Shown here piece by piece: positions 19,922 to 55,916 of a stretch of DNA of 64,000 nt (the first letter of the stretch is position 1; every line of letters starts with the position of its first letter). The position numbers and the translations under genes are program-made. The stretch comes from an uncultured Alphaproteobacteria bacterium (GTDB lineage: Bacteria; Pseudomonadota; Alphaproteobacteria; UBA2966). Below the pieces are notes generated by a model. It saw nothing but the letters and a program-made list of their open reading frames with translations. It had not been told where the DNA came from and ran no database searches. The stretch covers positions 372,001 through 436,000 of the forward strand of contig OY282368.1 in the NCBI GenBank assembly GCA_958295725.1. Direction: 5' to 3'.

Positions 19922-20218
19922 CTACGAATTGGCGCGCTCGACGACGATCCGGCCGCGTCCGCGTCTGACCAGATAACCGCCCCGCGGGATCATCAAATCG
20001 CGCTGCTGGATCAGGGGCCAGAGCGTGTTCGCGATCAACTCCGCGTGCTTGTCCTTCGTTTCGGTCCGTTGCGACGAAAGCCACTTGGCGAACGCTTCCT
20101 CCGCGATCTCGTTGCCGATGGACTTCCGGAGGGCATTGAGTTTGCGAACTTGCCCCTTCGTCAGGTTACTTTCGTCGATCGTTCGGGCAGGCATCTGTGT
20201 CATGACTTCCATTACCAT
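19922..20218 (-). CDS. Small conserved-looking hypothetical protein
   Basis: The 98-codon ORF gives a basic, soluble protein with no signal peptide or membrane segment. It reads like a folded domain: TIDESNLTKGQVRKLNALRK, then a helix with EIAEEAFAKWLSSQ, then an amphipathic helix LIANTLWPLI and a C-terminal arginine-rich strand GGYLVRRGRGRIVVERA. I do not recognise the family. Three in-frame ATGs (20218, 20212, 20203) are possible starts and none has a strong ribosome-binding site. It is flanked by gene-free DNA on both sides, so it is probably transcribed alone. Confidence 0.55.
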   Translation of the reverse strand: MVMEVMTQMPARTIDESNLTKGQVRKLNALRKSIGNEIAEEAFAKWLSSQRTETKDKHAELIANTLWPLIQQRDLMIPRGGYLVRRGRGRIVVERANS

Positions 20219-20318
20219 TCAAGTTGCTGGGACACGGTTTTCCTCTTCACCGGCTTTAAGGTCCGGTGCGGCCGAAAGTTTTCGGCGTTATTTTCACGGA
20301 GTCTAACCCGGATTTTTT

Positions 20319-20365
20319 CGATTTTCAACAGCGATTTTCAACAGATTGTCGCGCGGATTGTCGCG
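20319..20365. repeat. Two pairs of adjacent short direct repeats
   Basis: CGATTTTCAACAG occurs twice back to back (20319-20331 and 20332-20344). It is followed at once by ATTGTCGCG at 20345-20353 and again at 20357-20365. The block is AT-rich compared with its surroundings. It lies just past the stop codon of the deacetylase gene and upstream of the small hypothetical gene, so it could be an operator for that gene or the scar of slippage. Confidence 0.5.
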
Positions 20366-20396
20366 GGTCGCCGCGGCGGCGATTCCATGTCCCGGG

Positions 20397-21290
20397 TCAC
20401 TCGACCAGGCGTTTTCCTTCCGGATCCTGATCGCGGAACCAGTCGGCCATCCGGCCGCCGGTCACGAAGATGGTGTCGTCGCGCTCGAGCAGCATGTCCA
20501 AGGTGCGGGCGAACGTGTCCAGGCGGTAGGGAACCCCGATGATGTGGGGATGCAGGCCCATGGTCATGACGCGCGGCGGTGCCCCGAGCTCGCCAGCGAA
20601 ATACTCCACGGCGGCCTTCCAGCGCGTGTGGTATTCCTCGGCCGTATTCCGGTCGAGCGCGAAGGTCATGACGTCGTTCATATCCAGCGCGTAGGGCAGG
20701 GCGATCAAGGGCCCGTGCTTGGTGCGCATCCAGACCGGCGTGTCCTGGACCATCCAGTCGTGGATGTACTCGATCCCCTTGCTCTTCAGGAGGTCCGGGG
20801 TGTCGAGGCTCTCGCCGTATCCCGGGCCCAGCCATCCCCTGGGCCGCGCCCCGGAATACGCCTCGAATTTCTCCAGGGCTTCCTCGATGACCGCCTCCTC
20901 GTCGTCTTCGTAGAGCAGGGAGCGCTGAAAAAGGCCATGTCCGCAAAGCTCCCAGCCGGCGTCGAGGGCGAGCCGCGCGCAGGCCGGGTAATAGTCGGGA
21001 AGGGCCGCGTTCATCATGTTGGTCACCGGCAGGCCACGTTCCTCGAAGATGCGCGCGAGACGCGGCACACCGGTCCGCAAGCCGTATTCGACCCAGCTGA
21101 AGTTCCCGATGTCCGGGATCGGGGACTTGCCGTGCGGGTTCTGGAGGATGGTCCGGGGCATGGGCCGGTCGAACGGCCACACCTCCAGGTTCATCACGAT
21201 GTGGATCATGATGGGCTTGCCCTTCAGGGGCTTCAGCCTCGGCAGTTCGCCGAGAAGTCGAAAGGGAATGCGTGGGTTGTTCTCCGGCAT
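20397..21290 (-). CDS. Polysaccharide deacetylase-family amidohydrolase (PuuE-like)
   Basis: The 297-residue protein has the NodB-like barrel of carbohydrate esterase 4 relatives. Its closest resemblance is to cytoplasmic members annotated as allantoinase PuuE or deacetylase rather than to secreted chitin deacetylases: there is no signal peptide and the start is followed directly by NLEVWPFDRPMPR. Recognisable segments are GVPRLARIFEERGLPVTNMMN, GWELCGHGLFQ (metal-ligand region), the GYGESLDTPDLL loop and a late MGLHPHIIGVPYR. The metal-binding Asp-His-His triad cannot be assigned with certainty by eye. It is 76 nt downstream of the aldo/keto reductase on the same strand, so the two are probably co-transcribed. 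Confidence 0.78.
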   Translation of the reverse strand: MPENNPRIPFRLLGELPRLKPLKGKPIMIHIVMNLEVWPFDRPMPRTILQNPHGKSPIPDIGNFSWVEYGLRTGVPRLARIFEERGLPVTNMMNAALPDYYPACARLALDAGWELCGHGLFQRSLLYEDDEEAVIEEALEKFEAYSGARPRGWLGPGYGESLDTPDLLKSKGIEYIHDWMVQDTPVWMRTKHGPLIALPYALDMNDVMTFALDRNTAEEYHTRWKAAVEYFAGELGAPPRVMTMGLHPHIIGVPYRLDTFARTLDMLLERDDTIFVTGGRMADWFRDQDPEGKRLVE

Positions 21291-43902: not shown

Positions 43903-45303
43903 ATGTCGGACGACATTCTATACACACCCGCCGGCGAACTGGTCGGCCGTTATCGCGACCGGAGCCTGTCGCCGGTCGAGGTCGTGCGCGCGACCCTCGA
44001 TCGCATCTCGGCGATCGACGATGAGACGAACGCCTACGTCCTGGTCGACGCGGAGTCGGCTCTGGAGACGGCGCGGGCCTCGGAGGAGCGGTGGCGCGCC
44101 GGCGCGCCGATGGGCCTGGTCGACGGGGTTCCCTGCTCGATCAAGGATCTGGTGCTCGCCAAGGGATGGCCGACGCTGTCCGGATCGAAGACGACCGATC
44201 CCGACCGGGCATGGGACGCCGACGCGCCCTGCGTCGCGCGGCTGCGGGAGCACGGCGCCGTCATCCTCGGAAAGACGACGACGCCGGAGTTCGGATGGAA
44301 GGGGGTCACGGACAGTCCGGTATCGGGCGTCACGCGGAACCCCTGGAACCTGGACAAGACGCCGGGCGGGTCGAGCGGGGGCGCCGGGGCGGCCGTGGCG
44401 GCGGGGATGTGTCATCTCGCCATCGGCACCGACGGCGGAGGGTCGATCCGCATCCCCGCGGGCTTCTGCGGGATCTTCGGCCTGAAGCCGAGCTTCGGGC
44501 GCGTGCCCGCCTGGCCGCCGGGCCGCTTCGGCACGCTCGGGCACGTGGGTCCGATGGCGCGGACGGCGGCGGACGCGGCGCTCATGCTGACCGTGATCTC
44601 GGGACCGGACCCCCGCGACTGGACCGCCCTGCCCCACGACCCGCGCGACTACCGCGACGGTCTCGACCGGGGCGTGGAAGGCCTCCGCGTCGCCTTCTCG
44701 CCCGACCTGGGCTACGCCGACGTCGATCCCGAGATCGCCGGGATCGTCGCCGGCGCCGCCGAGTCGTTCGCCGATCTCGGCGCGGAGGTCGTCCATGAAT
44801 CCCCCGGGTTCGAAGATCCCGGAGCGGCGTTCCGGGCACTGTGGTGGGCGGGCGCCGCGAACGGACTGCGCGGGCTGACCGACGAGCGGATGAAGCTCGT
44901 CGAGCCCGATCTCGTCGCCGTGGCGGAAGAGGGAAAGCGGATCCCGCTTCTGGATTACATTGCCGCGGACGGCGAACGGGCCATCCTGGGCGCGCGCATG
45001 ATGGCGTTCCATCGGACCCGCGATCTTCTCCTGACGCCCGCCCTGGCGGTCGCCGCGTTCGATGCGGGAACGATCTCGCCCCGCGCGACCGACGACCCGA
45101 AGTGGATCACGTGGTCGCCGTTCACCTACCCCTTCAACATGACCAGGCAGCCGGCGGCGAGCGTTCCCTGCGGATTTACGGCCGACGGGTTGCCGGTGGG
45201 TTTGCAGATCGTCGGCCCCATGTTCGCCGACCACCTGGTGTTGCGCGCGGCCCACGCCTATCAGCGGGCGTTCCCCTTGACGGACAGGCGTCCGCCGGTT
45301 TGA
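43903..45303 (+). CDS. Amidase-signature family hydrolase
   Basis: The 466-residue enzyme hydrolyses an amide to acid and ammonia. The Ser-cisSer-Lys triad is readable as Lys81 (CSIKDLV), cis-Ser157 (PGGSSGG) and nucleophile Ser181 (TDGGGSIRIPA), with the usual 24-residue spacing between the two serines. It lacks the GatA-specific context (no gatB or gatC) and its C-terminal half resembles catabolic amidases. The substrate is unknown. The ATG at 43903 follows a GAGAG-type site. The next gene begins 39 nt later but has a different base composition and is probably not functionally related. Confidence 0.9.
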   Translation: MSDDILYTPAGELVGRYRDRSLSPVEVVRATLDRISAIDDETNAYVLVDAESALETARASEERWRAGAPMGLVDGVPCSIKDLVLAKGWPTLSGSKTTDPDRAWDADAPCVARLREHGAVILGKTTTPEFGWKGVTDSPVSGVTRNPWNLDKTPGGSSGGAGAAVAAGMCHLAIGTDGGGSIRIPAGFCGIFGLKPSFGRVPAWPPGRFGTLGHVGPMARTAADAALMLTVISGPDPRDWTALPHDPRDYRDGLDRGVEGLRVAFSPDLGYADVDPEIAGIVAGAAESFADLGAEVVHESPGFEDPGAAFRALWWAGAANGLRGLTDERMKLVEPDLVAVAEEGKRIPLLDYIAADGERAILGARMMAFHRTRDLLLTPALAVAAFDAGTISPRATDDPKWITWSPFTYPFNMTRQPAASVPCGFTADGLPVGLQIVGPMFADHLVLRAAHAYQRAFPLTDRRPPV

Positions 45304-45342: not shown

Positions 45343-46398
45343 ATGCCGATATACCGTATCGACGACAATAAAATCGTTCCGATTCAATCCACGACGTTCA
45401 AGGAACAGGGCTTGCTGGAACGGTCGGATCTCCAGGCTCTTCTGAAGACCCGGATCGACGCGATCTCTCCGGATACGTTGGTCGTCGCCGAGGAATTCAG
45501 CGGCTGGGAGGACAGTCGGCGGAGCATCGATCTGCTGGGTATCGACAAGGACGCCAACCTCGTCGTGATCGAGCTCAAGCGCACGGAGAGTGGAGATCAC
45601 ATGGAGCTCCAGGCCCTTCGTTACGCCGCGATGATCTCCACGCTGACCTTCGACAAGCTGGTGGATATTTACAAGAGGTATTCGAGTGAAAATAACCTGG
45701 GAGGCGATGCAAAAGGCCGTTTGATTGAGTTTTTGACGCCGGATGATCTCAACGACGAGGAATTTGATCCGGAGGTGAAAGAGGTTAAAATTGTCCTCGC
45801 CTCGGCCGGGTTCTCGAAGGAGCTGACGACCTCGGTGATGTGGCTGAACGATCGTAGGCTGGATATCCGCTGTGTCCGGTTGCGCCCCTGCGACAACGAC
45901 GGACAGATACTGCTTGACGTTCAGACCGTCATTCCAATCCCGGAGGCGGAAGAGTATCAGATCGGTATCCGAGAGAAGAGGCAAAGGGAGCGGGCATCGA
46001 GACGAAGCGAACGAGACACCAGCAAGTACGACGTGACCATTGGCGACGAACGATATCCGGCACAATTCAAACGTCAAATGATGCTCTTGCTAGTTTCGGA
46101 GATACTGAAGAGAGACGGAGATCCGGAGAAAGTGTTGGAGGCTATTCCCAAGAGAAACCTCGAGGTTTTTGAAGGAGAGCTCGATTCGGTAGAAGTCAAA
46201 GAACAGCTCGACTCTGATGGAACGCCGCGGTCTAGGTATTTCTTTTGCGGAGACGGCCAACCCTTCCATGTGGAGGGCAAGACCTGCGTTCTGTCCAAGC
46301 AATGGGGTCGCGAAACGCTCGATGTAGTGGAGGGATTGGGGAAGAAGTTTCCCGAGCTGAACATCAAGTGCAGGCGGTCGGAACAAGACGACGCCTGA
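45343..46398 (+). CDS. PD-(D/E)xK nuclease-like protein (DUF91/NucS-like N-terminal domain), lower GC
   Basis: The 351-residue soluble protein has a nuclease-type core near the N-terminus: Asp63 in RSIDLLGID, then a strand with Glu77-x-Lys79 (VVIELKR), then a helix with Gln90. This D...ExK arrangement is that of the NucS/EndoMS-like DUF91 group. The C-terminal 150 residues form a second domain (KRQMMLLLVSEILKR, later TCVLSKQWGRETLDVV) that I cannot name. From about 45.65 kb the DNA is clearly poorer in GC and its codon use differs from the neighbours, a sign of recent transfer. No methyltransferase or restriction partner is adjacent. A DNA-repair or defence role is possible. Confidence 0.68.
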   Translation: MPIYRIDDNKIVPIQSTTFKEQGLLERSDLQALLKTRIDAISPDTLVVAEEFSGWEDSRRSIDLLGIDKDANLVVIELKRTESGDHMELQALRYAAMISTLTFDKLVDIYKRYSSENNLGGDAKGRLIEFLTPDDLNDEEFDPEVKEVKIVLASAGFSKELTTSVMWLNDRRLDIRCVRLRPCDNDGQILLDVQTVIPIPEAEEYQIGIREKRQRERASRRSERDTSKYDVTIGDERYPAQFKRQMMLLLVSEILKRDGDPEKVLEAIPKRNLEVFEGELDSVEVKEQLDSDGTPRSRYFFCGDGQPFHVEGKTCVLSKQWGRETLDVVEGLGKKFPELNIKCRRSEQDDA

Positions 46399-46469
46399 GG
46401 CCCTATCGACTGACGGAGCCCGTGGCGGGTTCCGTGATAGAGTGGCGCGATCCGGACCGGGAGGGTCGA

Positions 46470-47180
46470 GTGGACGAACGCATGACGGTGCCCACGACCG
46501 ACCTGGGCGAGGCGAGCCACATCGAGGTCGTCGACCGGCTCCTGGATGTCGACGGCCGACGCCTCGTCGATGTGGGGAGCGGGGACGGCGAATTCGCGCG
46601 CGCGCTGGCGGAGCGCGGGGCCCGGGTGCTGGCGGTCGAGCCGGACGAGCGGCGGACGCCGCCCGAGCTTCCGCCGGCCATCGGCGATCTCGTGACGTTC
46701 GCGGCGGCGGGCGGCGAGGCCATCCCGCTCGACGACGGGGAGGCGGACGGCGTCTTCTTCAACCGCTCCCTCCACCACGTTCCGCCGGAGCTCATGGACC
46801 GGGCCCTCTTCGAGGCGCGACGGGTTCTGACTCCCGACGACGGCTTCCTGTACGTGGTGGAACCCGACATGTCGGGGACCTGGGCCCAACTTCTGAAACC
46901 GTTCCACGACGAGACCGAGGTCCGCCGCCTCGCCATCGAGGCGCTGGACCGGACGGCGGCGCGGCTGTTCGCCGACGGAAAGGAATATCGGTACATGCTG
47001 TGGGTGCGCTTCGGCGACTTCGAGGAGTTCGCGACGCGGCCCATGATGGCGCGGCTCGGCGTCCCGGCCGAAGACGTCGAGACGCCCGAGGTGCGGTCTC
47101 TGTTCGACGCCGGCGGGACCGCCGGCGAGTACGCCTTCTCGCAGATCCTGCGGCTTCGCGTCTATCGGGGCGTGGCGTAG
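46470..47180 (+). CDS. Class I SAM-dependent methyltransferase
   Basis: The 236-residue enzyme shows a Rossmann AdoMet site LVDVGSGDGEFA, the acidic motif-II AVEPDE, a motif-IV region GVFFNRSLHHVP and a late VVEPDMSGTW. This is a UbiE/Methyltransf_11-like arrangement in which LHHV follows the active-site strand. The substrate is not predictable. I prefer the GTG at 46470 because GGAGG lies 5 nt ahead; an ATG four codons later is the alternative. It is followed at 39 nt by the NAD(P)HX repair gene and may share its transcript. Confidence 0.83.
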   Translation: MDERMTVPTTDLGEASHIEVVDRLLDVDGRRLVDVGSGDGEFARALAERGARVLAVEPDERRTPPELPPAIGDLVTFAAAGGEAIPLDDGEADGVFFNRSLHHVPPELMDRALFEARRVLTPDDGFLYVVEPDMSGTWAQLLKPFHDETEVRRLAIEALDRTAARLFADGKEYRYMLWVRFGDFEEFATRPMMARLGVPAEDVETPEVRSLFDAGGTAGEYAFSQILRLRVYRGVA

Positions 47181-48898: not shown

Positions 48899-48983
48899 GC
48901 GGCTGTGGTGGAACCGGTAGACACGCATGCCTTAGGAGCATGTGCCTTACGGCGTGGGGGTTCGAGTCCCTCCAGCCGCACCA
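48899..48983 (+). tRNA. tRNA-Leu (anticodon UAG), CCA encoded
   Basis: The 85-nt gene folds as a class II tRNA. The acceptor stem is GCGGCTG/CAGCCGC, the anticodon loop CTTAGGA carries TAG, the variable arm is long as in leucine tRNAs, the T-loop is GTTCGAGTC, and ACCA is encoded at the end. TATAGA at 48844-48849 may be its -10 box. It ends 42 nt before the tig start codon. Confidence 0.95.
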
Positions 48984-55622: not shown

Positions 55623-55698
55623 GGGCGGTTAGCTCAGCCGGGAGAGCGCCACGTTTACACCGTGGAAGTCGGCGGTTCGATCCCGTCACCGCCCACCA
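55623..55698 (+). tRNA. tRNA-Val (anticodon UAC), CCA encoded
   Basis: The acceptor stem GGGCGGT/ACCGCCC, D-arm TAGCTCAGCCGGGAGAGC, anticodon stem CCACG/CGTGG with loop TTTACAC (TAC), and T-arm with GTTCGATCC are all readable. The gene ends ACCA. It lies shortly after the hupB terminator. Confidence 0.95.

Positions 55699-55838: not shown

Positions 55839-55916
<78 letters not shown>

Follow-up and report, generated by a model that had tools for sequence, protein, structure and literature searches.

The locus examined here raises the question of how a single nuclease-like gene of low GC content came to lie among the GC-rich core genes of an alphaproteobacterium, and what its product does there. 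The window, that is, the whole stretch of DNA that was analyzed (64,000 nucleotides), had a mean GC content of 68.0%. The gene under study is listed below.

45343..46398, + strand: gene for a PD-(D/E)xK nuclease of family PDC-S11 (open reading frame with ATG start, 351 amino acids plus stop)

The GC content of the gene was 54.2% and its GC3 was 67.9%, compared with 71.1% and 88.2% for the upstream amidase gene and 71.4% and 89.8% for the downstream methyltransferase gene. GC contents under 60% were found in the window for this gene, which was the lowest, and for two isolated 500-base segments (1–500 and 20001–20500). The second of these segments is an isolated stretch of 57.6% GC with short open reading frames on both strands. 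An initial annotation, made from the sequence alone, had described a lower-GC gene in GC-rich surroundings with a shift of codon use inside it, and both descriptions held. GC3 fell from 78% to 66% and 62% over the successive thirds of the gene, and the drop between the first 105 codons and the remainder was significant (Fisher p 0.009). The same difference in 77 relatives averaged 3.8 points (sd 5.4) and was at least 13 points in only one of them; the shift of roughly 14 points is unusual yet modest.

The manner of arrival was examined from the flanking genes.

43903..45303, + strand: flanking amidase gene of the ancestral arrangement (Pfam Amidase, 2.3e-102), whose orthologue adjoins the methyltransferase gene in genomes G001, G002, G004, and G006
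45346..46428, no strand assigned: inserted segment, approximate extent, from comparison with the same-genus genome G002 (edges by eye, good to some bases)
46470..47180, + strand: flanking class I SAM methyltransferase gene, ancestral neighbor (Pfam Methyltransf_11, 1.7e-12; likely GTG start, by eye)

The orthologues of the amidase and methyltransferase genes were adjacent, with no nuclease gene between them, in both same-genus genomes (G001 and G002) and in two of the four same-family genomes (G004 and G006); in the other two (G003 and G005), the amidase and methyltransferase genes had their best matches on separate contigs. The spacer of G002 resembled that of the window up to the ATG of the nuclease gene and then again from GTTCCGTGATAGAGT onward. 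The edges were read by eye, the automatic alignment of the two spacers being scattered in the middle, and were set at the nuclease ATG on the left and just before GTTCCGTGATAGAGT on the right. Because the similarity stops and resumes at these points, about 1.08 kb appears to have been inserted, which is hardly longer than the open reading frame and amounts to a nearly exact one-gene insertion. No convincing target-site duplication was found in the flanks, which show only two imperfect repeats, one of 11 bases (two mismatches) and one of 9 bases (one mismatch), and the insertion coincides with none of the three tRNA genes seen in the window (tRNA-Leu, 48899–48983; tRNA-Val, 55623–55698; tRNA-Asp, 55839–55916). 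Matches to the nuclease were absent anywhere in the six genus and family genomes G001–G006, and this absence, together with the low GC content, favors gain of the gene over repeated loss. The pattern that the initial annotation had named as evidence against its reading, a conserved vertical distribution among close relatives with normal codon use, was thus looked for, and none of the six genomes carried the nuclease.

The copy in the window stands alone among core genes, outside any defense island. The claim that it has no partner gene was borne out as well. The downstream methyltransferase was considered as a partner and rejected, as it is of the Methyltransf_11 type and is present in relatives that lack the nuclease. 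This ancestral enzyme does not belong to a DNA methyltransferase family by Pfam, so that no cognate methyltransferase lies adjacent. The source genome as a whole (3.7 Mb, G000 contigs C1 and C2) gave 14 N6_N4_Mtase and 10 N6_Mtase matches, apparently a large complement of DNA methyltransferases for a genome of this size; one of the 10 N6_Mtase matches was strong and type I-like.

The protein was divided into two domains joined by a helix.

45343..45936, + strand: N-terminal NucS-like nuclease domain, residues 1–198
45529..45531, + strand: codon of the predicted catalytic D63 (invariant in 75 aligned rows; aligned with NucS)
45571..45579, + strand: codons of E77-L78-K79, the ExK motif (invariant in 75 rows; aligned with ELKR of NucS)
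45937..46005, + strand: linker helix, residues 199–221 (helix 200–221 in the AlphaFold model)
46015..46377, + strand: C-terminal module, residues 225–345, here called the NQWG-type domain
46303..46305, + strand: codon of W321, the sole invariant residue of the C-terminal module (row alignments)

The AlphaFold model of the full protein was built from 75 rows (the window protein, 67 of 80 genome loci, and 7 of 36 viral loci) and reached a pLDDT of 89.4 and a pTM of 0.64, the mutual arrangement of its halves being less certain. Residues 25–191 of the model superposed on NucS (2vld_A) with a Z of 13.1 and an rmsd of 2.0 over 107 residues, and on EndoMS with a Z of 12.8. In sequence searches, the best Pfam match was NucS_C (E 0.0034, under its cut-off), and phmmer matched NucS 2vld with an E of 0.0027; the PD-(D/E)xK core of NucS type named in the initial annotation is therefore upheld by the fold and by phmmer, with a sub-threshold Pfam match. 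Residues D63, E77, and K79 align with the conserved D and ExK residues of NucS, which are catalytic in that enzyme. The positions invariant in the 75 rows include E26, Q31, E50, E51, D63, E77, K79, R80, Q90, R93, and Y94.

These matches raise the possibility of a mobile DNA-repair nuclease, that is, a NucS/EndoMS-like enzyme acting on mismatches or branched DNA, with which the window protein shares the nuclease fold and the D...ExK motif; NucS/EndoMS was its top fold match and NucS_C its top Pfam match. However, the curated NCBIfam NucS models scored far under their cut-offs (23.7 versus 216 bits and 17 versus 252), and the N-terminal domain of NucS is absent: model residues 25–191 align with residues 126–233 of the 2vld chain, which leaves only about 25 residues ahead of them in the window protein. 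The window protein further differs from NucS/EndoMS in its long C-terminal module and its mobile distribution, and the absence of the gene from G001–G006 and the restriction–modification (R-M) and BREX genes near relatives also speak against a repair enzyme, which we regard as highly unlikely.

A full-length match was obtained with a PADLOC profile. Residues 1–345 aligned with positions 1–344 of 347 of profile PDLC04909 (E 7.8e-124) for PDC-S11, a single-gene candidate family of PADLOC-DB v2. The window protein has the same length as its relatives and shows no structural difference from this family, which is itself a computational candidate. The PDC families are presented in the available text of PMC10855318 as candidates by embedding only; the same text reports, for a Pseudomonas survey, that 90% of 10 strains with PDC-S11 were phage-resistant, which is a correlation, and the available text of a Streptococcus suis survey gives co-occurrence statistics for PDC-S11 (PMC12813430). 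Activity tests or phage protection for PDC-S11 were not found in the accessible parts of the literature on the family.

The distribution of the family is patchy. At an E of 0.001, the nuclease matched in 7 of 96 related genomes and, within the class, in 16 of 387 (own genome included in both), and in 26 of 396 genomes of the phylum, many of these matches covering the N-terminal part only. Plasmid records with a relative numbered 352, of which 4 had matches spanning 80% or more of the query, and one phage record also contained a relative. A scan with an alignment as the query found 529 relatives in genome contigs, of which the best 80 were fetched, and 36 loci in viral contigs; a close-relative scan with the single window protein gave no match in either set of contigs, so that the alignment query was needed. 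PHROGs gave no match for three proteins. In a tree of 84 rows, the window protein fell in a supported set of 28 that mixed Pseudomonadota, Planctomycetota, Gemmatimonadota, and Latescibacterota; only rows over 330 amino acids were taken, which left out L118, L120, and L123. This mixing of phyla fits horizontal spread, with the reservation that some of the rows come from metagenome bins. One such bin (Dehalococcoidia, L085 7268–8317) holds a near copy of the relative on a Vibrio tubiashii plasmid (tree distance about 0.005). The copy is followed, as on the plasmid, by a large open reading frame, which may reflect contamination of the bin or a recent plasmid transfer.

Such a distribution would also suit a weapon or addiction element by which prophages and plasmids exclude competitors, the copy in the window then being a domesticated or decaying remnant with no present function. 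The 36 viral-contig loci, the 352 plasmid records, and the solitary position among core genes can be read in this way. The open reading frame, however, is intact and keeps all the active-site residues and W321, and keeping competitors out would itself count as restriction; we consider a remnant of this kind very improbable.

The genes around relatives were then compared with those of control stretches. Type I R-M genes were present in 18 of the 80 relative loci (the best 80 of 529; up to 10 kb on each side, 1.29 Mb) and in none of 40 control stretches of 20 kb (0.8 Mb; Fisher p 0.0006). As the controls came from eleven isolate-like genomes, four with a relative elsewhere, and many relatives are metagenome bins, this enrichment is rough. 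The type I genes were counted with four probe proteins, and the probes and the neighbor in L127 were identified by profile; a PADLOC tally of 139 nearest neighbors was too scattered and was set aside. The nuclease gene abutted a type I R-M gene on the same strand in 7 of the 80 loci: hsdR in L069, L074, L076, L127, and L129, hsdS in L135, and hsdM in L120. In L129, the nuclease lies between HsdR and HsdM, and the copy in L120 is truncated (160 amino acids). The initial annotation had called the gene solitary, which fits the copy in the window and fails in these seven relatives.

Other defense genes were also found near relatives. On the Vibrio tubiashii plasmid, the relative (48% identity) lies three genes after brxL in a BREX locus, a Loktanella relative lies near an NaeI-type R-M system, and a Bradyrhizobium relative lies among transposases. 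A short Argonaute gene abuts the nuclease gene in L082 and L085. In L082 (3433–7443), a TIR-like open reading frame (label by eye), the short Argonaute, and the PDC-S11 nuclease follow one another with small gaps, so that a short-Argonaute system may here include the nuclease as an additional component. The occurrence in defense islands that had been proposed as a check thus applies to part of the relatives (BREX, type I R-M, and short Argonaute) and not to the copy in the window. Of the two roles proposed at the outset, phage defense or repair, the full-length PDC-S11 match, this gene company, and the plasmids and viral contigs point to defense, while the patchiness and the lack of the NucS N-terminal domain argue against repair.

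The C-terminal module folds confidently in isolation (pLDDT 94.3, 69 rows). The module of the window protein had no Pfam match, and among the 69 rows there was no credible match and three single weak ones; the description of an unknown C-terminal domain was apt to this extent. Foldseek at an E of 0.001 found no match for the C-terminal model in the PDB or BFVD. The top PDB sequence matches of the module profile were designed repeat proteins, which were taken as spurious. The profile and structure searches with both domains that the initial annotation had suggested placed the whole protein in PDC-S11, gave a NucS-like fold for the core, and left the module with no Pfam family and a weak resemblance to SeqA, discussed below.

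The NQWG-type module is not confined to PDC-S11. It was also found in the PADLOC profile PDLC05042 of PDC-S57, the other half of which matches a T5orf172 protein, on a KAP NTPase (L226), on a protein weakly similar to methyl-directed restriction enzymes (L232, E 8.7e-5), on another PD-(D/E)xK protein (L258), on an RHH-like protein (L225) and a membrane-type protein (L262; both labels by eye), and in a small open reading frame overlapping a PD-(D/E)XK gene of Dulem virus 37. These occurrences could be aligned with the domain of the window protein. Nucleases outside PDC-S11 and an NTPase thus carry the module as well, among them several candidate defense proteins, and this is new here. A small open reading frame in L128 (11094–11543), right after a PDC-S11 gene, starts like the C-terminal module alone and is perhaps a tandem or detached reader.

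Conversely, the core carries other tails. A tree was built from the N-terminal parts of 75 proteins, whose C-terminal domain labels numbered 62, 11, and 2; in it, the module was replaced on the PDC-S11 core by DUF4268 at two separate places and by a third C-terminal domain at two places. DUF4268 has been reported in GmrSD type IV enzymes, according to the available text of PMC4619093, so that GmrSD would have this tail in common with some PDC-S11 relatives. The third domain (L166 10640–11125 and L177 10616–11065, alignment A5) is also present on a DUF262 protein encoded by a plasmid of Lacticaseibacillus. It had no Pfam match and no credible PDB sequence match, either with single sequences or with the A5 profile, and an EVE/PUA-type identity, considered on resemblance only, was dropped.

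The exchange of tails bears on the reading in which the protein is a structure-dependent defense nuclease like Shedu, which would cut phage DNA according to ends, loops, or replication intermediates, the module regulating or oligomerizing it instead of recognizing a modified base. SduA is a defense protein, and it resembles the window protein in being a single-gene PD-(D/E)xK protein with a similar core (8ps5_A, Z 7.2), although a Z under 8 may reflect a common arrangement according to the warning of the structure tool. The SduA_C model matched relatives under its cut-off (best score 17.3 versus 27) and was not listed for the window protein at an E up to 1. By the aligned ranges, the nuclease core is N-terminal in the window protein and C-terminal in SduA. 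The presence of the module on quite different enzymes and its replacement by other domains are better fitted to specificity modules, and we hold the Shedu-like reading to be possible but doubtful.

We consider it probable that the gene encodes a horizontally acquired single-gene DNA endonuclease that restricts incoming DNA, a solo, type IV-like enzyme with an exchangeable DNA-reading tail. This reading follows from a mobile solo nuclease with exchangeable tails, the lack of a cognate methyltransferase next to it, and the restriction genes near some relatives. Cleavage of DNA would be the task of the N-terminal domain (1–198; D63/E77/K79), which would use a divalent metal in the manner of NucS, and the C-terminal module (225–345) would hold and select the DNA and set the specificity. 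The module is exchangeable in evolution, the NQWG module, DUF4268, or the third domain occurring on the same core. As no cognate methyltransferase lies beside the gene, host DNA would have to be spared through what the module recognizes, which may be a foreign modification, a methylation state, or a DNA structure. In some relatives, the solo enzyme would have been drawn into type I R-M operons. A nuclease joined to a reader is the layout of modification-dependent enzymes, as described in the available texts of the EVE survey (PMC7641849) and PMC7897488. The window protein has in common with EVE-HNH and GmrSD (type IV) a nuclease with an exchangeable reader, the reader being putative here, and, like a type IV restriction enzyme, it has no cognate methyltransferase next to it.

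The modification-reading step of this mechanism is suggested by analogy and by a weak structural match of the module to SeqA, the C-terminal DNA-binding domain of which binds hemimethylated GATC. Among 996 chains aligned to the module, two SeqA entries ranked first, with Z of 4.6 (1lrr_A, rmsd 4.2) and 4.4 over 95–96 residues, that is, nearly the whole domain, values which again lie in the range that may reflect a common arrangement. The next non-SeqA entry had a Z of 3.3 over 46 residues, and the full-length model matched SeqA to the same C-terminal part (Z 4.4). In sequence, Pfam gave no SeqA match for the module. Comparison by hhalign with a SeqA profile of 10 sequences (a start was obtained at 10 of 15 loci) scored 18.5, which was reached by 2 of 200 column-permuted controls, while the reversed profile scored 9.4; the probability was only about 3%. 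A widened module profile scored 17.9 (reached by 2 of 200) and, when written on the window sequence, 16.7 (no permutation).

The weak alignment is collinear, and the RYF and NQWG motifs fall on the SeqA loops with R116, T117, and R118 and with N150 and N152, respectively, residues that contact GATC according to the available text of PMC6225831. The N-x-N loop of SeqA corresponds to N-Q-W in most rows and to K-Q-W in the window protein. At the first site of this loop, 49 of 75 rows have N and the window protein has K (319); at the second, W is found in 75 of 75. The window protein also has Y at 299, where the family has R. The N-terminus of L225, which is RHH-like, weakly resembles that of SeqA (E 0.029, ahead of 2,000 self-shuffles and 1,158 other open reading frames), but the same N-terminus occurs on proteins that lack the module, and it was not taken as a sign of a SeqA architecture. 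Kinship of the module with SeqA is plausible, not established. A limited literature search for a prior description of a SeqA–restriction nuclease fusion found none beyond two candidate papers, one of which uses SeqA only as a marker, and the words NucS, DUF91, or SeqA do not occur in the available text of the EVE survey (PMC7641849).

We put forward only tentatively the further proposal that the module is a SeqA-fold reader of the adenine-methylation state and that defense nucleases, both solo and type I-associated, have recruited it many times over, in independent events, for targeting. PDC-S11 would then single out DNA that is hemimethylated or carries unusual methylation, and its members in type I operons would inspect the m6A marks of the system itself. 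With the gene in the window, a catalogued candidate family gains one more member; what is new is the shared module, along with its possible kinship with SeqA, in that a module with no Pfam model recurs on effector domains unrelated to one another, and several of the proteins concerned are candidate defense proteins. If the module reads the methylation state as SeqA does, this would account for the sparing of the host by solo nuclease genes, would bring PDC-S11 and PDC-S57, both PADLOC candidate families, under one mechanism with a testable prediction for both, and would add to type IV restriction a new class of reader that is not built on the PUA/SRA/EVE fold.
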